Source: an uncultured archaeon
Lineage (GTDB): Archaea; Thermoproteota; Nitrososphaeria; Nitrososphaerales; CALBXV01
Direction: 5' to 3'
Assembly (NCBI GenBank): GCA_937890045.1
Contig: CALBXV010000427.1
Location: forward strand, 1-15,943
Length of the DNA: 15,943 nucleotides
Shown piece after piece: positions 5,486 through 15,943 of this stretch. Both the position numbers and the translations under genes were made by a program. The notes below the pieces were generated by a model. The model was not told the DNA's origin. It made no database searches and worked only from the letters and a program-made list of their open reading frames with translations. How positions within the stretch are numbered: the first letter of the stretch is position 1; each line of letters opens with the position of its first letter.

Positions 5486-5698
5486 ATGGCAAACGTACAA
5501 GTCATCAGCTTTCACAATGGTGGACAGGTTCTTGATGTAAAAGATGTCGAGACCGTGGCAGATGTAGCACAGAAGCTAGAACTGTCAATGGAGAATGTAG
5601 TAATAAGTGTTAATGACACTTCCGCTACTGCCGGCACTCAGCTTACTGCTGGAGCTGTAGTCCAGTTTCAAAAACAATCCGTTAAGTCAGGATTGTAA
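5486..5698 (+). CDS. Ubiquitin-like protein, ThiS/MoaD-like beta-grasp (70 aa)
   Basis: The predicted role is the modifier of a ubiquitin-like conjugation system. Residues 23-66 follow the ThiS/MoaD pattern: TVADVAQKLEL (first helix), ENVVISVND (strand), then a loop and LTAGAVVQFQK (the turn and last strand before the tail). The length fits a single beta-grasp fold. The C-terminus is VKSGL, so one extra residue follows Gly69; the downstream JAB protease could remove it to expose a C-terminal glycine for activation. There is no di-glycine. The SD is AGAGGAGAAAGTAAAT. The gene ends one base before the E2-like gene. The four-gene context (Ubl, E2, JAB, E1) is what lifts this above a simple sulfur carrier; no thiamine or molybdopterin genes are nearby. 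Confidence 0.75.
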   Translation: MANVQVISFHNGGQVLDVKDVETVADVAQKLELSMENVVISVNDTSATAGTQLTAGAVVQFQKQSVKSGL

Positions 5699-5699
5699 A

Positions 5700-7709
5700 G
5701 TGACTCGCGGGAAAGAGAGGGAATCAACTAGGGTTCCCTCTCTAGGAACGGAGTTTACGATAAAAGCATCTAATAATAATGTAATTAATGCACTATATAG
5801 ATATATTGATCCTAATGACAGTGTTGACTTTAATAGAATAGAGACATTTATAAGAAATAATTTCTCAGTATTTAATCCTTATAAGCATGATAGACATGGA
5901 TCACTAGTAATTAGTAGAAATCTTGCAGAAAGAATCGAACATTTTACTAGTTTATCCAGACAGATAAATATGTTAATTAAACAAGGTGTAGAATTTTATA
6001 GGGACCAGAAGATTAATGCTCAAGCAAACAACTGGATTGTTCGTATAGTTACTCCAATATTAAAAAGTAGTACTAAAGTAGAGTTAGAAACTCTTTATTT
6101 ATCTACTGTGAGTTGGAAGGAATTAAAAGCAGCAGATGAAACACCTACAAAACTAAATGAACGTTTTATCAATATTAAACCTACTCAAGAAGAATCAATT
6201 TATAGATATCAATATGGTTATCATCCTCATATAAATACTAGTGGACAACCTTGTTTTGGAGCATATATGATTAGATTAAATGATTATGCTGTACAAGGTA
6301 GTATCGTAGGATATTTTAGTACTCTAAGACAATGGGCTAATACTAGTAATTCTAGAGATGCATTCTGGAATCTTCCGGGATTAATTCGAGATGTATCTGG
6401 TAGAACAATGGCTATTAAAAAGAAACGTCATAATCCAGAAGAACCATATATGTATAGGAAAATAAGTTACATATTACCTATAAAAGTATTATTGCAAATG
6501 AAAGATGCTTGGCAATATCCATTTGAAGGTAATAATTATTATAATCACATAAGAGAGGGCATAGGTCGTACACGTATAGCTACTAATTCTTTCAGAGAAT
6601 TAGGAAGATACTATGTTAATAAATATAACCGAAATCCACAGAGATTTAAATATAATGAAGAAGAAGTATTAGATAGAACAAGAGCATATAGCATATTGTA
6701 TGCACTTATTAGAAACTATTTAATTGATTCTGTAGAACATAAACAAGAACTGAGAACAAATATAGATAATTTTCATAGAGATTATTTCCCACTTAATCGT
6801 TCAAATTTTGCGACAGCATTTCAAAGTACATTAAATAAAAATGTAGAGCCAAATAGTAAAATGTTTGATCATTTAAAAGGCTCTGTAGATGAGCTTGGTG
6901 ATGTAGTAAGAACATTTGTTATGGAAGCAAGAAATGCTCTAAGAAATAATTCATATAAATTTTATGATACTTTTAATAAAATAATGGAATATGGTTGGTT
7001 CAGATATAAAAATATTAACAGTCAATTTACTGAAGAGATGAATGTGTATACACATTATTATCTTGCAGCTATGTATATAAAGAATATGAAAGATGATTAT
7101 TATCTTACAAAAGTATTACATATGCAAGACCTATTCAAAATCAAACATTGGTTTAGTTTAAGTGAAATAAATGATTTTTATAAAAGACTTATGGGGTATA
7201 AACCTGCGGGGAAAACACGTTTCTTAAAAAAAATGAGAGAAGAAGTAATTCCTGCTATTTATTCTTATAGTGAATATGAAGATGTACTAATTAATGAATA
7301 TTGGGACATAGAACCAAGATTAGGTCATAGGTTAGAAAGTCAACGAACACTTTGGGGTGAAACAGATATTGAAAAACTTAGAGCAAATAAGATAGCTGAG
7401 TTAAAATATTCTTGTGAAATAGAAGATATATTTAAAGAGTTTAATGAAATGGTAATGCATTATCAAGTATATGAAGAAAGTGATATAGCTAAACTTCAGG
7501 ATTACATGGAATATGTAGTGATGAATATGCTATATGAATGGACATCCCATACCTTTAACGTAAAAGCAAAGGAGGCAAACTATGCCATCGAAGCAAGACG
7601 CAAAGTCCAAAAAGGTTTCAAAAAGTTCGAAACCAAAGAAGGAAAAGAAAGGACTAATAATATCGCAGAAGATGCATCAGAAAGTACAGTACCTGCTATC
7701 TCGGTTTAA
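5700..7709 (+). CDS. Large protein with E2-like (ubiquitin-conjugating) catalytic motif (669 aa)
   Basis: Residues 175-185 read HPHINTSGQPC, matching the eukaryotic E2 signature (for example HPNINSNGSIC) in the HP, I-N, Gly and Cys positions and in the exact His-to-Cys spacing of ten. Cys185 is the candidate Ubl-accepting residue. It is preceded by strand-like text (RFINIKP...IYRYQYGY) and followed by VQGSIVGYFSTLRQW, where E2s have a helix. His177 replaces the usual Asn of HPN. The E2-like part would cover about 80-230; the remaining 430 residues look mainly helical, charged and unrecognised, and could select a target or do the work of an E3. The start is GTG with AGGA upstream; a 10-bp perfect hairpin lies at codons 5-15. 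The last 43 codons overlap the JAB gene. The gene is strongly AT-rich. Confidence 0.75.
   Translation: MTRGKERESTRVPSLGTEFTIKASNNNVINALYRYIDPNDSVDFNRIETFIRNNFSVFNPYKHDRHGSLVISRNLAERIEHFTSLSRQINMLIKQGVEFYRDQKINAQANNWIVRIVTPILKSSTKVELETLYLSTVSWKELKAADETPTKLNERFINIKPTQEESIYRYQYGYHPHINTSGQPCFGAYMIRLNDYAVQGSIVGYFSTLRQWANTSNSRDAFWNLPGLIRDVSGRTMAIKKKRHNPEEPYMYRKISYILPIKVLLQMKDAWQYPFEGNNYYNHIREGIGRTRIATNSFRELGRYYVNKYNRNPQRFKYNEEEVLDRTRAYSILYALIRNYLIDSVEHKQELRTNIDNFHRDYFPLNRSNFATAFQSTLNKNVEPNSKMFDHLKGSVDELGDVVRTFVMEARNALRNNSYKFYDTFNKIMEYGWFRYKNINSQFTEEMNVYTHYYLAAMYIKNMKDDYYLTKVLHMQDLFKIKHWFSLSEINDFYKRLMGYKPAGKTRFLKKMREEVIPAIYSYSEYEDVLINEYWDIEPRLGHRLESQRTLWGETDIEKLRANKIAELKYSCEIEDIFKEFNEMVMHYQVYEESDIAKLQDYMEYVVMNMLYEWTSHTFNVKAKEANYAIEARRKVQKGFKKFETKEGKERTNNIAEDASESTVPAISV
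5714..5743 (+). promoter_or_regulatory. Strong hairpin just inside the E2-like gene
   Basis: AGAGAGGGAA (5714-5723) pairs perfectly with TTCCCTCTCT (5734-5743) around a ten-base loop, beginning 14 bases after the start of the GTG codon. There is no U-run, so it is not a terminator. It could limit E2 translation relative to the Ubl or mark an RNA cleavage site. Confidence 0.6.
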
Positions 7710-8466
7710 ATCTCGCGAATGGTCGGGACCAGCATGGTATAGATGTACAAATAATAAAGATGGTTTTCCTATTTATTGGGAGCTGATATACTTCTTAGCT
7801 ATTGATCTTGGTCATGGTGCAGCTACAGAATATAAAGGTGAAGATGTTAGTAAAACTATTTTCAAAATATACTCAGCAAATAAAAAGTGGTTAAAAGATA
7901 CTTACATAGGAATGATACATAGTCATCACAGTATGAGTGCATATCATAGCGGTACAGATGAAGCTACGTTGGTAGACATGTGTCCAGACCAGGGATTCTA
8001 CGGTAGTCTTGTAGTATCATCTAAAGTTGGTGAGGCTGCTGCATTTGCATTCAGTTATAAAGACCAATTTAAAAATATATTAATTCATACAATAGATGAT
8101 GATGATATAAAATATATTAAACCAAACGTACCTAAGGAGTTTATAGCAGAAGCTAATCATATTAAAACAAAAGCTGATGCAGCAACACCATCATGGCAAA
8201 AGAAAACAAATGGTACTGCAATGACTTCATATTATCCTAATCAAACTACTTTTGATTGGAGATATAATGGTGAATGGAGAAAAGCTAAGGTACAACCTAA
8301 AGATGATTATGCTGATATTACTGTAAAAGAATATATGGAAATGGAAGCTATTATAGAAGCACTTGAGGAAGGAAGTATGTTCTATGGTGAAGCTAACCAG
8401 CTATTTAAAACAAGATGGAATATGGGTATTCATGAGTTTTATGAAATTCCACCACTAGGATCATGA
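7582..8466 (+). CDS. JAB/JAMM-type metalloprotease, predicted Ubl-processing or deconjugating enzyme (294 aa)
   Basis: The JAMM signature is complete. Glu46 in REWSGP is the distal catalytic acid. His113 and His115, a seven-residue spacer, Ser123 and Asp126 form the zinc site (H-x-H-x7-S-x2-D, read as HSHHSMSAYHSGTD). Such enzymes cleave after the C-terminal glycine of ubiquitin-like proteins, either to mature the Ubl or to remove it from targets. A basic Lys-rich tail (residues 1-23) precedes the domain, and an uncharacterised C-terminal part of about 100 residues follows. The start is fixed by AAAGGAGG at 7568-7575, although this places the first 128 bases inside the preceding gene in another frame. 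It overlaps the E1 gene by ATGA. This is the most secure assignment in the operon together with E1. Confidence 0.87.
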   Translation: MPSKQDAKSKKVSKSSKPKKEKKGLIISQKMHQKVQYLLSRFKSREWSGPAWYRCTNNKDGFPIYWELIYFLAIDLGHGAATEYKGEDVSKTIFKIYSANKKWLKDTYIGMIHSHHSMSAYHSGTDEATLVDMCPDQGFYGSLVVSSKVGEAAAFAFSYKDQFKNILIHTIDDDDIKYIKPNVPKEFIAEANHIKTKADAATPSWQKKTNGTAMTSYYPNQTTFDWRYNGEWRKAKVQPKDDYADITVKEYMEMEAIIEALEEGSMFYGEANQLFKTRWNMGIHEFYEIPPLGS

Positions 8467-9191
8467 GTAATACTAGATTCCTAAGAAACAAAGACCTTAT
8501 TGACCAGCGACAGTTAAATTTAATAACTGTCGTTGGTGCAGGGGGGATAGGGTCAGCAGTAATACAATTATTAGCTGTAATGGGATTTAAACGTATTCAT
8601 ATTTATGATCCCGATAATATGGACCATCATAATTTATCTACAACATTATATCCAGCATCTCAAGTAGGTTCACCAAAAGTTTTGGCAGCCTCAGCATTGG
8701 CAAGACAGTATAATCCTGCTATAACAACTGTTGCATCACGTTATAAGTTTGATTCAAATCAAGAAATGACCCCAAAAATAATAGTATGTATAGATAATAT
8801 GGAAGACAGACTAGCAATTTATGATCGTTGGAGAATGGAGAATAAAGATTCTAAAGGATATTTTATAGATGGTAGAATGGATGCATTAGCATTCGAAGTA
8901 GTAACAATGACTAAAAGAGATGCACCTATTGACTATTATGAACACTGGACTTCCAGTGCTAATATAGAGGACGCACCTTGTACCATGAAACATACCATAT
9001 TTACTGCAAATCTTGTGGCTGGTATGATGGTTAATCAGGTGTTTTGTTTATCAGGTAATAGAGGTTATCATAAGTATATATGGATGGATTTATTGACAAA
9101 TAATCTTCGTAAGGAAGGTTTTAGAATAAATTCCATAGGAAAATATCTAGATCATACTTATATTAACCCTACCATAACTGAGGAGAAATAA
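8463..9191 (+). CDS. ThiF/E1-like Ubl-activating enzyme (242 aa)
   Basis: The Rossmann adenylation domain is clear. The nucleotide loop GAGGIG is at 25-30; the acidic motif YDPDNMDHHNLST at 48-60 has Asp49, Asp51 and Asn57; GSPK at 69-72 carries the conserved Lys; CIDNMEDR at 109-116 carries the Mg-binding Asp111. It should adenylate the C-terminus of the Ubl and, if Cys173 (in APCTMKHTIF) acts as in other E1s, take it as a thioester before passing it to the E2-like protein. It lacks the paired CxxC zinc motifs of many ThiF/MoeB proteins and a rhodanese domain. Translation is coupled to JAB (ATGA) with a weak SD. A 13-bp hairpin lies near its 5' end. Confidence 0.88.
   Translation: MSNTRFLRNKDLIDQRQLNLITVVGAGGIGSAVIQLLAVMGFKRIHIYDPDNMDHHNLSTTLYPASQVGSPKVLAASALARQYNPAITTVASRYKFDSNQEMTPKIIVCIDNMEDRLAIYDRWRMENKDSKGYFIDGRMDALAFEVVTMTKRDAPIDYYEHWTSSANIEDAPCTMKHTIFTANLVAGMMVNQVFCLSGNRGYHKYIWMDLLTNNLRKEGFRINSIGKYLDHTYINPTITEEK
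8504..8536 (+). promoter_or_regulatory. 13-bp hairpin near the 5' end of the E1 gene
   Basis: CCAGCGACAGTTA (8504-8516) pairs with TAACTGTCGTTGG (8524-8536), with one G-U wobble and a seven-base loop. It begins 41 bases after the start of the ATG and has no U-run. Confidence 0.6.
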
Positions 9192-9193
9192 CA

Positions 9194-9415
9194 ATGGTAG
9201 ATGAAAGAGAGACCCTTAGTTCTATAATGGGCTATTTAGGACAAATGTCCACTAGTTTAGTAGAATTAAGTAATACTATGCAAGGTTTTGCCGAAATGTT
9301 GATAAAACTTGAAGCAACAATGCAAAATAGCCCCTACCTCGCAAAGAAAACAACAGAAGCCAGTGAGATTGAGAGACTTGAAGCTCTCAAGGAACTGGCT
9401 GGGAGAACAGCATGA
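9194..9415 (+). CDS. Hypothetical small helical protein (73 aa)
   Basis: A good SD (GAGGAGAAATAAC) precedes the ATG. Residues 6-50 have regular spacing of Leu, Met and Ile (for example LGQMSTSLVELSNTMQGFAEML), as in an amphipathic helix or short coiled coil; the C-terminal part is charged (EIERLEALKELAGR). It lies two bases after the E1 gene and overlaps the annealing-protein gene by ATGA, linking the conjugation operon to the replication genes. It might be a partner of either group; there is no direct evidence. Confidence 0.65.
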   Translation: MVDERETLSSIMGYLGQMSTSLVELSNTMQGFAEMLIKLEATMQNSPYLAKKTTEASEIERLEALKELAGRTA

Positions 9416-9846
9416 CTAACAATACAATCACAGACTTCGCTAAATTCGTAGGACCTATCAAAACTATAGATATACATGGTAAACCATATGTCACAGTTCC
9501 TGAACGCTTACGAGCATTTCATAATTTATATCATAATGGTAGAATAGAAACAGAACTTATACATGGAGAAGGTGGCCATTATATAATGAAAACTACAGTT
9601 ACTCCTGATGTGGAAAACCCTGATAGATATTTCACTGGTTTTGCACATGAGGATGAATCTAAAAGTCAAATCAATAGAACAAGTGCTATAGAAAACTGTG
9701 AAACTTCGGCAACTGGTAGAGCACTAGGATTGCTTGGACTAGGTAGTGAATCTAGTATTGCATCAGCCGAGGAAGTACAAAATGCAATACATCAACAAGG
9801 AAGTCAGAGTAAACATCTATCTTCCATAAAAGAGGAATCTAAATAA
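9412..9846 (+). CDS. Erf/Rad52-like single-strand annealing protein (144 aa)
   Basis: The region ENCETSATGRALGLLGLG followed by IASAEEVQNAI (about residues 96-127) is the hallmark of a group of short phage proteins taken to be ssDNA annealing proteins. The preceding half has the expected beta-strand pattern (RIETELIHGEGGHYIMKTTVTP). The predicted role is to anneal complementary single strands during recombination-dependent phage replication. It starts by ATGA overlap with the small helical gene and ends by TAATG overlap with the putative SSB gene, consistent with one replication operon. The exact family (Erf, Sak or another) cannot be settled by eye. Confidence 0.65.
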   Translation: MTNNTITDFAKFVGPIKTIDIHGKPYVTVPERLRAFHNLYHNGRIETELIHGEGGHYIMKTTVTPDVENPDRYFTGFAHEDESKSQINRTSAIENCETSATGRALGLLGLGSESSIASAEEVQNAIHQQGSQSKHLSSIKEESK

Positions 9847-10490
9847 TGCCTTATAGACCAGAACAAAAACAGTCCTTTAAGAATGGTGATACTCCACCTT
9901 GGCTAGGTTACCAAAATACTAAAATCTTATCATTTAAAGATGAGTCTGATAAGTATGATTGGGCAGATGTATATCTAGTTATAGAAATGCAAACAGCGGG
10001 AAGTGAATTTCCTGTTAGAATGCGTATCAATGGATCATTTGAACGTGATGAAGAAGGTTTTATCATGAACAATTCACTGCTAAAAAAGTTTTATAGTATC
10101 GCTGATGCTGTAGGATTTGGTGGTGGATTTGATAAGGCTGGAGACTGGGTAACTAAATCAGATGAAGGAATAGAAGACATAGCTAAATTTCTGAACAACA
10201 ATTATACTGACAATTCTGGTTCAGAAATATATCCATATACTATCTATGTTTATAAAACAAAGGTAATGGATAAGCAGTCCAACGAAGAAAAGGTATGGAC
10301 AAGAGTAGTTGAACGAATGGCTAAATCTGACAATCAAAAACAGATGAAGAGTCTAGAGAGCTATGTTAAATGGGCTAAAGATAATGATGTTATTAAAGAA
10401 CATGTTCCAGAGGAAAATACAACACCGGAACCTTGGGATAAGGCATCGGCACCTTCTGTAAAGACTGTTAACAGTTATAAGGTAGGTTAA
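9846..10490 (+). CDS. Putative ssDNA-binding protein (214 aa)
   Basis: The position between the annealing protein and the primase-helicase, the beta-rich middle (YDWADVYLVIEMQTAG, FPVRMRINGSFERDE) and the disordered Pro/Glu-containing tail (EENTTPEPWDKA) suggest an OB-fold ssDNA-binding protein, but there is no diagnostic motif. The final residues are not an acidic tip like that of E. coli SSB. A Gly-rich GFGGGFDKAG stretch lies near residue 90. SD AGAGGA lies upstream; the start overlaps the previous stop by one base. It could instead be another replication accessory protein. Confidence 0.4.
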   Translation: MPYRPEQKQSFKNGDTPPWLGYQNTKILSFKDESDKYDWADVYLVIEMQTAGSEFPVRMRINGSFERDEEGFIMNNSLLKKFYSIADAVGFGGGFDKAGDWVTKSDEGIEDIAKFLNNNYTDNSGSEIYPYTIYVYKTKVMDKQSNEEKVWTRVVERMAKSDNQKQMKSLESYVKWAKDNDVIKEHVPEENTTPEPWDKASAPSVKTVNSYKVG

Positions 10491-12292
10491 TGTTTGTCGA
10501 GTTAGCACTTAGGAGTCCTGCATCAAGAGGCTCCTTAGTGAATCTCGATGATCTAGAACAAGCAGTAACGGTACATGGGAAGAATATTCCTGTGTATCGT
10601 TCTGTATATTTATATGATAGGACAGGTTACGATTATGTGGAATTACATAAAAGTGTCAAAGGGTATACAGGTTGGAGAGGGATTGATTATCTTCCTATAG
10701 ATATAGATAAAGTTCATAACTCTAGTCCTATTGTATCAGGTAAGAAAACTGTTGCAAAGGCAAGAGAGGTAAATAAAAAATTATTAGAGTTAGGTCTAGA
10801 TGATACTTCATATTGTATATTTTTTAGTGGAACAGGATTTCATTTTATCATGCCTGGCTCACTATTCGGATTCGAAAATCATCAGGGAGCAGGGTTACCA
10901 TACATTGTAAAGAGAACAATGTCAAAGCTCTTACCTGAGGCAGATATGTCAATTTATTCAAGGTCTGCTTTATATAGATGTGCAGCTACTAAGAACTATA
11001 AAACACAACTTTATAAAACATATATCACAAGTGAAGAATTAGACACTCTAACCTATGCTAAGATTGCAGAGAAGAGTAGGAAATGGGACATCAATGATTT
11101 CCATACATTCCCATCAGAAGAGCAATCACATAAGTTTGAGAAGTATGTAACATTTGATTCACCCAGTGTAAAATCATTTTTTAATAAAAGTAATCACACA
11201 AATGTTGTACCATGTATTCAAGATATGTATAACAACCCACCAGCTGAAGGAAACCGGCACAATACTTTAATGAGGATCGTTTCTCACTTCAGAAGAAATG
11301 GGATTCCTATTAATGCAACAATAGCAGCTATGGAAGAATGGAATAAGGGTGGGGACAGAATCAAAGATTCTGAACTTCTTGTATCTATTAACGATGTATA
11401 CACAAAAGGTTATCAATATGGGTGCATGGATAGTATGATGATGACCTATTGTCAACCTCATTGTGTATATTTTAAAAGAAAGGATTATCTTATGGATATA
11501 TTGAATGTCAGTGATCTACAAGCAATGTTAGATACTAGATTGGAAAGAGATTTCTCAGGTGTAAGTATAGATTTATCAAAACTTTTTGGCTTAATAGGAA
11601 TAGAATCTGTTATATATCCGGGAGAACTAGTAACAATAGTAGGACCAACCGGTGTAAATAAAACAACTCTTGCTCAGAATATATCTTTAGCATATAATGC
11701 AGCTGAAGATAAAATAGAAGAAGAATTACAAATACCAACATTGTACTTATCATTAGAATTAGCACCATGGCTTATGCATAGAAGAAATCTTCAAATTGTT
11801 GCTGACGTAGATACAAATACTATATCAAAAGAGAATAAAAAGATATATGATCAATTTAAAAATCAAGTAGCTCATATAAAGATTCAAACTCTTAGTCCAA
11901 CTGTAGAGCAAATAAGAAAAAAGGTTCAAAAAATGTCACCTGCTTGCATAGTGATAGACTATATTGATTTAGTGGAACCACCAAGTCATGCAAGAGGTGA
12001 ATACGAATCAATCAGAAATATATCTCATGCTTTAAGTAATTTAGCAGTGAATTATGATCTAATCATTATCCAGCTAAGTCAAACTTCAAGACAATACTCC
12101 AGAAGTGGCGAATTAGACCTCTATGCCGGTAAAGGAAGTGGAGCAATAGAAAATGCCTCACGGAAACTAATGGTATTAGAAGGTGAATCAAAAACAAGAG
12201 AAAGGAGGCTGAAAATGGTTAAGAGTACAGATGGCGAACTATGGGATGTAAAACTGAACTTTAATGATTCATTCAGATTGAAAAGAATATGA
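10490..12292 (+). CDS. Primase-helicase fusion: AEP primase plus DnaB/Twinkle-like helicase (600 aa)
   Basis: The N-terminal part is an archaeo-eukaryotic-type primase: PIDIDK (Asp71, Asp73), the second motif SGTGFHF (His118), and PEADMSIYSRSALYRC (about 149-164, third acidic and Arg). A helical domain follows (NRHNTLMRIVSHFRRNG, about 255-271), then a Cys cluster at 312, 321 and 325. The C-terminal part is a RecA-like helicase with Walker A GPTGVNKT (385-392), Walker B ACIVIDYIDL (485-494, Asp490) and LSQTSR (529-534). It should unwind the replication fork and prime DNA synthesis. An unusual Asn390 replaces the usual Gly before the Walker Lys. An imperfect hairpin lies near the start. The gene overlaps the one before it (TAATG) and the one after it (ATGA). 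Confidence 0.87.
   Translation: MFVELALRSPASRGSLVNLDDLEQAVTVHGKNIPVYRSVYLYDRTGYDYVELHKSVKGYTGWRGIDYLPIDIDKVHNSSPIVSGKKTVAKAREVNKKLLELGLDDTSYCIFFSGTGFHFIMPGSLFGFENHQGAGLPYIVKRTMSKLLPEADMSIYSRSALYRCAATKNYKTQLYKTYITSEELDTLTYAKIAEKSRKWDINDFHTFPSEEQSHKFEKYVTFDSPSVKSFFNKSNHTNVVPCIQDMYNNPPAEGNRHNTLMRIVSHFRRNGIPINATIAAMEEWNKGGDRIKDSELLVSINDVYTKGYQYGCMDSMMMTYCQPHCVYFKRKDYLMDILNVSDLQAMLDTRLERDFSGVSIDLSKLFGLIGIESVIYPGELVTIVGPTGVNKTTLAQNISLAYNAAEDKIEEELQIPTLYLSLELAPWLMHRRNLQIVADVDTNTISKENKKIYDQFKNQVAHIKIQTLSPTVEQIRKKVQKMSPACIVIDYIDLVEPPSHARGEYESIRNISHALSNLAVNYDLIIIQLSQTSRQYSRSGELDLYAGKGSGAIENASRKLMVLEGESKTRERRLKMVKSTDGELWDVKLNFNDSFRLKRI
10506..10540 (+). promoter_or_regulatory. Imperfect hairpin near the 5' end of the primase-helicase gene
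   Basis: CACTTAGGAG (10506-10515) pairs with CTCCTTAGTG (10531-10540) at 9 of 10 positions, starting 16 bases after the start of the ATG. Confidence 0.4.
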
Positions 12293-14382: not shown

Positions 14383-15943
14383 TTAGCCTCCCGGCTTTAA
14401 ACGCTCCTGCTCCTGCATAGCTTTAAAATATTTCCCAAACTGCATATAAGGTATACCGGTAGTTTTCTCTACTGTTCTCATCGGATTTTCTATAATCCCA
14501 CCGGGTCCTACGACATCTCTCATTAACCTACCAAATGGAAACATAGTCCATATATAATAGTCAGCTAACCTACTGTAATCGTCCGTTACCATGGCTTTAA
14601 ACATGGGAGGTAACAATCGCAAAGCAGGAGGAGTAATTATTTGCAAAGGTTGAAATGGATAAGGATAAGCACCAAAGAATGCACGTTCCCGCTCTTTATC
14701 ATCACCGAACATCAGGTCAGCTGTGTCTTGGAACCAGTTCCATGGTGCCGGTAAGGCATTCTCAAAGATAGAATACATGAATATATTACTTAGTCCTAAC
14801 ATAAACATATCAGCAATAGCTAATCGCTTAAATGCCTCAAACTGTTGCGTACCTTCTTTCCATCCATAAATATGAGCTTGCTCTACAATCTGCCTTCTAA
14901 ATCTAACAGAGTTCCATGCCCAGATTTGGAAACGTGTCATCACTTTCCCAAGTTGACTATTAGCAAAAGCAGGTCTATAAGGTGCACTATACAAGAACTG
15001 AGTAGCCTTAACGCCCTTCTTAGCCATCTCTACTAAGGTTTGGTTATCAAACTCAGGAGTAAGATTACCAAACTTTTCTCTTGCTTGGAGATAGTGAGCC
15101 ATGAATGCATCCCTTCTCAAAAACCTCTCCGGCACCCGCATAAACGATGCAGCCTTATTAAATGCACTCTCCGTGATTCCATGTTTCTGTGCAATCCGGT
15201 ATAAATTCCTATCCGGTAAGTTCGGGTCCTTCTTAATAGCACCTATTGCCTCACGAACAGCTTTTTGCATATTGGCACTTTTAATATTGGGATTCATATC
15301 AGCTTCAAAGATTAAGAACTCTTCTATTATGCCAAGACTTTTGACCCAATCGTTTACATCTTCCATGCTTTTCCAATTCTTATTCACATGGAGTCTCAAA
15401 TATTTTATACTCTTTGCATTCTTATAATGCTCCCAGCCGGTACTAATCAAAGTATGTACACTACCACCATAAAGGTTAGCAACGGTACTCTTGGGATGAG
15501 CAAGTAACGTAGCCAGCTGATACTTAGCTTCCATCTGCCCCAACTTTTTCAAGGTATTAAAGTCCACATCCTTCAAAGTTTTTAAATCTTCGTCTGTTAA
15601 AGAACCGGTAATTGGTATCCCAGCTAATTTTTGCACACCTTTTCTTAGTCCCAGCATTTCCCTAGCCTTATTAAGTCTGCGAGCTACCATATTATCAGCA
15701 AACCAAGCATAAGCAGTACCTTTTATATTCATCTGTGGATTATCTAGGACATACTTGGGTATATTAGTAGGATTCCCACCAGCCTGTTCATGATAGAGGT
15801 AAAGAAACTCAGACCACAAATCAGTTAGTTCTCTTCCTAGCCTTTTATTTGCAGAATTTTTATGATTCTTAAATTGATATATAGCATCCCTACCTGAGAC
15901 GTCTGCTATCTGCTGATGAAAAGTATTGATAACATTTTTTACA
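14383..15943 (-). CDS. Large late/virion-associated protein, N-terminus beyond the window (at least 519 aa)
   Basis: The frame stays open to the right edge (first full codon at 15940-15942), so the TTG at 15819 is not the real start. The protein is mostly helical and basic, with features of large phage polyvalent or virion-interior proteins: a hydrophobic stretch (about MFMLGLSNIFMYSIF), then an aromatic/Pro-rich part (GAYPYPFQPLQIITPPALRLLPP) and a C-terminal GIIENPMRTVEKTTGIPYMQ. I cannot assign an enzyme motif. It lies on the opposite strand to the early genes, like the endolysin, and is more GC-rich than they are, which fits a late gene. Possible roles include an ejection or internal virion protein. 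Confidence 0.7.
   Translation of the reverse strand, partial: VKNVINTFHQQIADVSGRDAIYQFKNHKNSANKRLGRELTDLWSEFLYLYHEQAGGNPTNIPKYVLDNPQMNIKGTAYAWFADNMVARRLNKAREMLGLRKGVQKLAGIPITGSLTDEDLKTLKDVDFNTLKKLGQMEAKYQLATLLAHPKSTVANLYGGSVHTLISTGWEHYKNAKSIKYLRLHVNKNWKSMEDVNDWVKSLGIIEEFLIFEADMNPNIKSANMQKAVREAIGAIKKDPNLPDRNLYRIAQKHGITESAFNKAASFMRVPERFLRRDAFMAHYLQAREKFGNLTPEFDNQTLVEMAKKGVKATQFLYSAPYRPAFANSQLGKVMTRFQIWAWNSVRFRRQIVEQAHIYGWKEGTQQFEAFKRLAIADMFMLGLSNIFMYSIFENALPAPWNWFQDTADLMFGDDKERERAFFGAYPYPFQPLQIITPPALRLLPPMFKAMVTDDYSRLADYYIWTMFPFGRLMRDVVGPGGIIENPMRTVEKTTGIPYMQFGKYFKAMQEQERLKPGG

Follow-up and report, generated by a model that had tools for sequence, protein, structure and literature searches.

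A four-gene phage module predicted to encode a ubiquitin-like conjugation cascade

Introduction

The best-studied bacterial operons that encode ubiquitin-like proteins (Ubls), those of the Bil system and of the cyclic oligonucleotide-based antiphage signalling system (CBASS), defend against phages. In Bil (BilABCD), a host defence, one operon encodes an Ubl, an E2, a JAB/JAMM peptidase that frees the glycine of the Ubl, and an E1; the Ubl has two domains, the E2 a CEHH motif and the E1 an inactive and an active adenylation domain together with a Cys domain (PMC11354881; here and below, published systems are given as in the accessible parts of the cited papers). The Cap2/Cap3 pair of type II CBASS uses E1, E2 and JAB chemistry, in which Cap2, an E1-E2 fusion, conjugates the CD-NTase (PMC10449767). 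Here we describe phages that themselves own an entire set of Ubl, E2-like, JAB and E1 genes, placed beside their replication genes. The set was analysed in a stretch of 15,943 nucleotides (contig CALBXV010000427.1, forward strand, deposited with an uncultured archaeal assembly; hereafter the window) and in its relatives. The four genes probably form a reversible Ubl cascade, likely tagging phage or host proteins in phage DNA replication or recombination. Conjugation chemistry of the module, well backed by its anatomy, is very probable; replication or recombination proteins as its target, proposed from gene position, have slightly less than an even chance.

The same toolkit is used by the types 6a-6e described in 2006 by Iyer, Burroughs and Aravind (PMC1779556). 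Type 6d shares with the phage module only an unfused Ubl with Gly at the C-terminus and separate E2, JAB and E1 proteins; its E2 has a His downstream and none upstream, and its JAB contains a JAB-N domain, whereas types 6a, 6b, 6c and 6e differ by fusions or other partners (PMC1779556). Caldiarchaeum subterraneum has an operon of ubiquitin (Ub), E1 and E2, and its JAMM enzyme Rpn11 trims and removes Ub, but this system includes E3s and a Gly-Gly end and is archaeal, not viral (PMC6043591). A phage-borne Ubl and JAB, as in the module, are encoded by the lambda tail genes I and K; the lambda-type cluster comprises Ubl, JAB and TAPJ and serves tail assembly, and no E1 or E2 is named for it in the accessible part of the source (PMC1779556). 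Literature searches, which left many subscription papers outside their reach, yielded no description of a phage-borne Ubl-E2-JAB-E1 set. The main text of the crAss001 paper makes no mention of thiamine, ThiF or metalloprotease, and that of the 2021 survey of crAss-like phages none of ubiquitin, ThiF, JAB or metalloprotease.

Results and Discussion

The four genes of the module follow one another on the plus strand of the window. The Ubl gene (5486-5698, 70 residues) is separated by a one-base gap (5699) from the E2-like gene (5700-7709, 669 residues, GTG start), which shares a reading-frame overlap of 128 bases (7582-7709) with the JAB/JAMM metallopeptidase gene (7582-8466, 294 residues); the latter is joined to the gene of the E1-like adenylating enzyme (8463-9191, 242 residues) by an ATGA (8463-8466). 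A preliminary description of the stretch had reported these four open reading frames (ORFs) and their junctions; its positions agreed exactly with the ORF list, the junctions were verified, and the HPHINTSGQPC motif that it had noted corresponds to residues 175-185 of the second protein.

The Ubl matched Pfam ThiS with 22.5 bits, exactly at the cut-off of 22.5, and fell below the NCBIfam ThiS cut-off. The best matches of its profile to the Protein Data Bank (PDB) were SAMP2, PF1061 and ThiS (E 0.007-0.011), and 7 of the 25 members of the Ubl alignment matched ThiS at E <=0.1. It is from these borderline sequence matches that the ThiS/MoaD-like beta-grasp proposed earlier draws its support, and they are consistent with a ThiS/ubiquitin-like beta-grasp domain ending in glycine. 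The protein terminates in KSG-L; Ser68-Gly69 (codons 5687-5692) form the predicted activated end, and Leu70 after them would need trimming. Since the Ubl alignment (A2) had been selected by Ser-Gly, the invariance of this pair within it partly reflects that selection. In an independent recount with a profile lacking the C-terminus, all 65 distinct Ubls showed Ser-Gly at the C-terminus, and a single residue followed it in 43. The fetched homologues (29 of 58 found) likewise ended in SG plus 0-3 residues in 29/29 cases. The residue preceding SG was Lys or Arg in 19 of 25 marine-type members and in 10 of 11 members of the crAss/Flavobacterium type described below. Tails beyond Ser-Gly need a peptidase, and the JAB gene adjoins, which was counted in favour of the cascade.

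In the E2-like protein, a UBC (E2) domain was predicted at approximately residues 28-235 (5781-6404), with His175-Pro176-His177 (6222-6230) as the counterpart of the E2 HPN motif, judged from conservation and alignment, and Cys185 (6252-6254) as the predicted thioester cysteine. No UBC-type Pfam match was obtained for the window protein, and no significant UBC match for the E2-like alignments A1, A5 and A6 in Pfam, NCBIfam and PDB profile searches or, by profile, for the five crAss-type E2s scanned, so that the assignment rests on model and motif. The AlphaFold2 domain model matched UBC/UEV folds in 50/50 of the matches listed, with modest Z values (<=5.1), and Foldseek searches of the PDB with E2-like models returned nothing at E 0.001 or better. 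With these limits the model bears out the suggested UBC fold around Cys185, a putative catalytic cysteine placed after an HPN-like motif. Members of A1 and A6 had been picked by HPH...C, so motif invariance there is partly by choice; independently of this, HPH was present in all 78 phage ORFs that had been located only by their position before JAB, and a Cys followed 9-11 residues after the first His in 78/78. In the window this spacing is ten residues, the same as in UbcH5. The conserved His residues of the aligned E2-like proteins stand before the Cys. The remaining C-terminal region (6405-7706) was mostly helical in the whole-protein AlphaFold2 model; because confidence was poor at about residues 230-333 and 468-545, no fold is claimed for it.

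The JAB protein matched Pfam Prok-JAB at 1.1e-4 with 22.5 bits, just under the cut-off of 25. All five JAMM residues (E46, H113, H115, S123 and D126) were found and were invariant in 25 chosen relatives, as expected from the full motif noted in the third protein, which appears to hold a complete E...HxH...S..D zinc motif. The E1-like protein gave a strong match to Pfam ThiF (2.7e-21, 76 bits, cut-off 28), and its profile matched UBA5 in the PDB (8.6e-14), together with the NEDD8 and SUMO E1s, MoeB, ThiF, Cap2 and BubCD. Residues G25, G27 and S31 (within GAGGIGS, 25-31), K72, D111 and R116 were invariant in 25 chosen relatives, as was C173, whose context (PCTMKHT) presumably resembles the PxCT motif of E1s. 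The ThiF/E1 adenylation domain recognised earlier in the fourth protein was thereby confirmed, and its GxGGxGS, putative catalytic Asp and conserved Arg and Lys place the protein, by sequence, in the ThiF/E1 superfamily, which has a Rossmann-type adenylation domain.

The best NCBIfam match of the E1 was ThiF (8.1e-15, under the cut-off) and the best Pfam match of the Ubl was ThiS, which would suit a sulfur carrier, with the Ubl, E1 and JAB serving thio-cofactor, cysteine or tRNA-thiolation pathways in the manner of ThiS/MoaD systems. An E2-like protein has no place in sulfur transfer, and a Pfam scan of ten window proteins gave no rhodanese or sulfurtransferase match. Because all 78 testable phage loci have an E2-like HPH...C ORF before JAB, a sulfur carrier was rejected as the main function and is very improbable.

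The components were also compared with those of the described systems. PRTRC cassettes are plasmid-borne and also have E2-like and Ubl members. In NCBIfam the E1 matched PRTRC_ThiF (7.5e-10) and the JAB matched PRTRC_A (0.045), but these matches were weak (38.6 bits against a cut-off of 144.75, and 13.3 against 101.8), and none of the scanned E2 and Ubl members gave a PRTRC match. Bil is owned by the host and not by a phage, and its defining traits were not found: the window Ubl is a single domain of 70 residues and not two consecutive domains as in BilA; C185, preceded by HPH, is followed by Ile, Leu and Val where the CEHH pattern of BilB has Glu at +6, His at +8 and His at +13; and the 242-residue E1 gave one ThiF match, in contrast to the two adenylation domains and Cys domain of BilD. 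The E1 profile match to Cap2 is a link to type II CBASS, but E2 and E1 are separate genes here and the ten window proteins gave no CD-NTase match in Pfam. Also lacking were the fusions and partner genes by which types 6a-6e are defined, as far as given in the accessible text of PMC1779556. The toolkit is known, and the four-gene phage assembly matches no described type compared here.

Relatives of the module were collected from IMG/VR, where a sequence search with the E1 gave 61 loci and profile scans gave 302 stretches with an E1 relative and 356 with a JAB relative; the best 80 loci were kept from each profile scan. The pooled 194 loci, which included the window, a locus from a Chitinophaga chromosome (L205) and one from a Heimdallarchaeota genome (L206), were reduced to 123 by removal of exact duplicates, recognised by the end of JAB or E1 only and not otherwise thinned for relatedness. 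Counts refer to loci with enough upstream sequence, and phage figures exclude L205 and L206. JAB lay <=1.2 kb from E1 in 103/103 phage loci (104/104 with the two others included). An E2-like ORF of >250 residues preceded JAB in 79 of 80 loci including the two, all 79 having HPH or HSH and then C; in the phage loci alone an E2-like ORF with HPH...C was present in 78/78, always as HPH. The Ubl was detected by hidden Markov model (HMM) in all 68 testable phage loci (68/69 with L205 and L206), and Ser-Gly occurred within 12 residues of the Ubl end in 66 of these 69. The E2-like and JAB frames overlapped in 77 of the 78 phage loci of this marine type, with one frame relation throughout (the exception being L033). 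The overlap, which recurs in crAss-like phages, might provide translational coupling.

As these loci had been found by E1 or JAB, a reverse test was anchored on the primase-helicase, using the best 80 of 512 relatives, not thinned, and a query alignment derived from E1-bearing loci. E1 was found upstream in 46/46 testable contigs, JAB in 38/38 and the Ubl, by HMM, in 19/23. In two of the four Ubl misses (L263:1237-1521 and L272:1271-1558) another Ubl-like ORF was seen, ending in SGNKRGGKV and one further residue, which may be a modifier swapped for the usual one. With E1 present in 46/46, the module appears to be a core locus among the closer relatives of the window, as sampled by the best 80 of the 512 primase relatives. 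The linkage that had been anticipated in related phages therefore held for the marine type, no testable phage locus lacking it.

In the IMG/VR and GTDB scans the marine-type module was seen only on viral contigs. The E1 profile confirmed no relative out of 45 pattern stretches in GTDB genomes, a scan that can miss relatives, since one of the two GTDB loci found with the JAB profile, the Chitinophaga locus, does hold an E1 relative. A plasmid search gave a single match at E 0.01. The nearest virus record (G001) shared 25% of the window's sampled words. One relative, a 54-kb contig (L073), carries portal, terminase and capsid genes; its portal was most similar to those of P22-like phages (about 22% identity), and its terminase matched a varied set of 794 records, the 25 listed including no crAss-like phage. 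The initial view that the phage itself carries the Ubl, E2-like, JAB and E1 genes was upheld by profile searches, structure prediction and the neighbourhood counts.

The catalytic steps that we infer for the module follow those of better-studied enzymes. JAB would trim the Ubl after Ser-Gly, much as CsRpn11, which cleaves conjugates as well, trims the precursor of CsUb exactly after Gly-Gly (PMC6043591), and as BilC frees the glycine of BilA (PMC11354881). The E1 would adenylate this glycine and then likely load the Ubl onto Cys173; BilD forms a thioester with BilA (PMC11354881). Cys185 of the E2-like protein would receive the Ubl and pass it to a target lysine. As no E3 is recognisable, targets may be selected by the long helical C-terminal region of the E2-like protein, which would probably act instead of a separate E3. 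JAB could later strip the tag from the target, which would make conjugation reversible.

Placement beside replication genes was substantiated by the 600-residue primase/DnaB-like helicase encoded in the same gene run (10490-12292, plus strand), which matched Pfam DnaB_C (2.5e-17) and PriCT_1 (2.1e-5) as well as phrog_19 and phrog_16345. The packed run continues past E1 with a two-base gap, followed on the plus strand by two small genes of 73 and 144 residues (9194-9846), a gene of 214 residues (9846-10490) and the helicase gene, all joined by one- or four-base overlaps. The 144-residue protein matched phrog_11717, whose function is unassigned. In the slot of the two small genes (74 and 128 residues in L015), L073 has a 288-residue Sak4-like annealing protein, which looks like a gene swap. 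Promoter-like sites in the window were at the level of shuffled sequences (45 against 41.8 expected), and of the seven terminator-like sites (2.7 in shuffles) five lay on the other strand; therefore no operon boundary is claimed.

The cascade might instead modify virion proteins, since lambda-type tail clusters include genes for an Ubl and a JAB (PMC1779556). Virion assembly is highly unlikely: the neighbours of the module are replication and recombination genes, and in L073 it occupies the strand opposite the portal, terminase and capsid genes. Takeover of the host was also considered, in which host proteins are tagged early in infection to redirect or silence the cell and the replication neighbourhood merely reflects early expression. 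The module shares a tight gene run with replication genes, a class typically expressed early, and the substitution ratio (dN/dS, nonsynonymous to synonymous) of the E2-like gene is as might be expected of a part that follows host targets. In three comparisons dN/dS of the four genes was 0-0.44, a range counted in favour of the replication-linked cascade. The E2-like gene was highest of the four in two (0.38 and 0.44), against 0.09-0.11 for the primase; in the third its value was 0.22, JAB being slightly higher at 0.24. No host target can be named, however, and retention of the module in 46/46 testable relatives suits a core phage process at least equally. Host takeover thus appears rather unlikely, and tagging in replication or recombination is preferred.

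A divergent version of the module, with order and active sites kept, was found in Crassvirales (crAss001, DAC15) and Flavobacterium phages. The E1 matched 78 records of GenBank phages at <=34% identity, four being jumbo phages; they comprised Bacteroides and uncultured crAss-like phages, phages of Flavobacterium psychrophilum, three Xanthomonas phages and one Erwinia phage. Eleven named loci of crAss/Flavobacterium type, plus Fpv1 and one Xanthomonas phage, were examined closely. The module is thus present in phages with named hosts (crAss001, DAC15 and FpV4), where its genes are annotated as thiamine biosynthesis protein, metalloprotease or hypothetical protein. In crAss001 the order is primase (gp80), Ubl (gp79), E2 (gp78), JAB (gp77), E1 (gp76), gp75, uracil-DNA glycosylase and nuclease genes, an order shared from primase to nuclease genes by its annotated kin. 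The first 90 residues of gp79 are Ubl-like and end in KKIKSG before a long extension, gp78 has HSH...C, and gp77 has the JAMM motif. Ser-Gly was invariant in 11/11 phage Ubls of this type, followed by a long extension in ten and by two residues in cr106. In cr106_1 (L211:1605-2808) an HNH gene splits the Ubl, ending in KKIKSGKF, from the sequence that forms its C-terminal extension elsewhere among crAss-like phages.

The E2 and JAB frames overlapped in 11 of 12 loci of this type, the exception being DAC15 as annotated, and overlap length was 2 modulo 3 both here and in the 77 overlapping marine-type loci. Profile comparison aligned HPHIS...PCLG of the marine type with HSHVS...PCTG (E 5e-4, with a probability of just 31%). 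A crAss-type E2 profile found 79 loci in IMG/VR, with JAB next to it in 67/68, E1 in 64/64 and Ubl in 75/78 testable cases; the HxH...C pattern as defined here was present in 73/79. GenBank held 45 records matching the crAss001 E2 and the 78 matching the E1, against 138 matching the crAss001 primase. By these counts the module is not present in all crAss-like phages. The expected linkage thus had no exception in the marine type but failed in many crAss-like phages, which are without such an E1.

Anti-defence genes are usually accessory, and this patchy spread would fit an accessory gene. The cascade might tag or strip parts of Bil- or CBASS-type systems of the host, or compete with these systems; tags set by the host could be taken off by JAB, and bacterial Ubl systems do act against phages, Bil on the tail fibre (PMC12948488) and CBASS through conjugation (PMC10449767). 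Tag removal alone, however, needs no complete Ubl-E1-E2 set, and marine and crAss-type sets keep a single place and order. An accessory anti-defence gene was disfavoured by the 46/46 of the primase-anchored test; the patchy spread keeps it in consideration for the crAss-like phages. Counter-defence is improbable because the module is near-fixed at one locus, and modification during replication, as suggested by gene content and position, is favoured over it.

In both distant phage groups the module sits beside primase, helicase, annealing protein or nucleases, and it is for this reason that a replication or recombination target is proposed. Tentatively, ocean phages with P22-like portals and the Crassvirales/Flavobacterium phages may both run the cascade as a fixed part of replication or recombination, with the ligase inside the giant E2. 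If true, this would be a viral counterpart, with a Ser-Gly-ended modifier, of the ubiquitin/SUMO control of eukaryotic replication. A working cascade would make ubiquitin-like control in phage DNA replication accessible to study and provide names for several unassigned genes of crAss-like gut phages, and its viral E1, E2 and JAMM lineages would bear on the origin of ubiquitin signalling.

Several further loci were noted. The Chitinophaga sp. YR573 chromosome (L205:6497-9514) has Ubl-like, E2-like (with HSH...C), JAB and ThiF genes downstream of a primase-like gene, and appears from its sequence to hold a prophage-like copy of the crAss/Flavobacterium-type module; its Ubl-like ORF is without Ser-Gly and ends in QQKSELGRK. 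In the Heimdallarchaeota metagenome-assembled genome (JACZSS010000101.1, L206:3487-5449) Ubl-like and E2-like ORFs on the minus strand face a JAB gene head to head, and by eye the E2-like ORF contains HPDVSSDGLPCLS. Neither a plus-strand HMM search nor the ORF list revealed an E1 on this 7.9-kb contig. These genes may represent a relative of the phage module in Asgard archaea. In Flavobacterium phage Fpv1 (L217:3620-5912) JAB is split into two ORFs around a minus-strand gene that by eye resembles a homing endonuclease; the break is close to the JAMM motif, and the FpV4 copy is uninterrupted. The 228-kb Xanthomonas phage PhiXhv-12 has a ThiF gene (L207:6860-7543) near topoisomerase and ligase genes, and in this one jumbo record no JAMM or HxH...C motif was seen in seven other genes examined around it. 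Four loci (L055, L056, L057 and L058) have an additional ORF of 142-143 residues between JAB and E1. On the minus strand of the window, a long protein without a clear family match is encoded at 14383-15942, and a gene at 1-462 resembles a phage lysozyme by eye.

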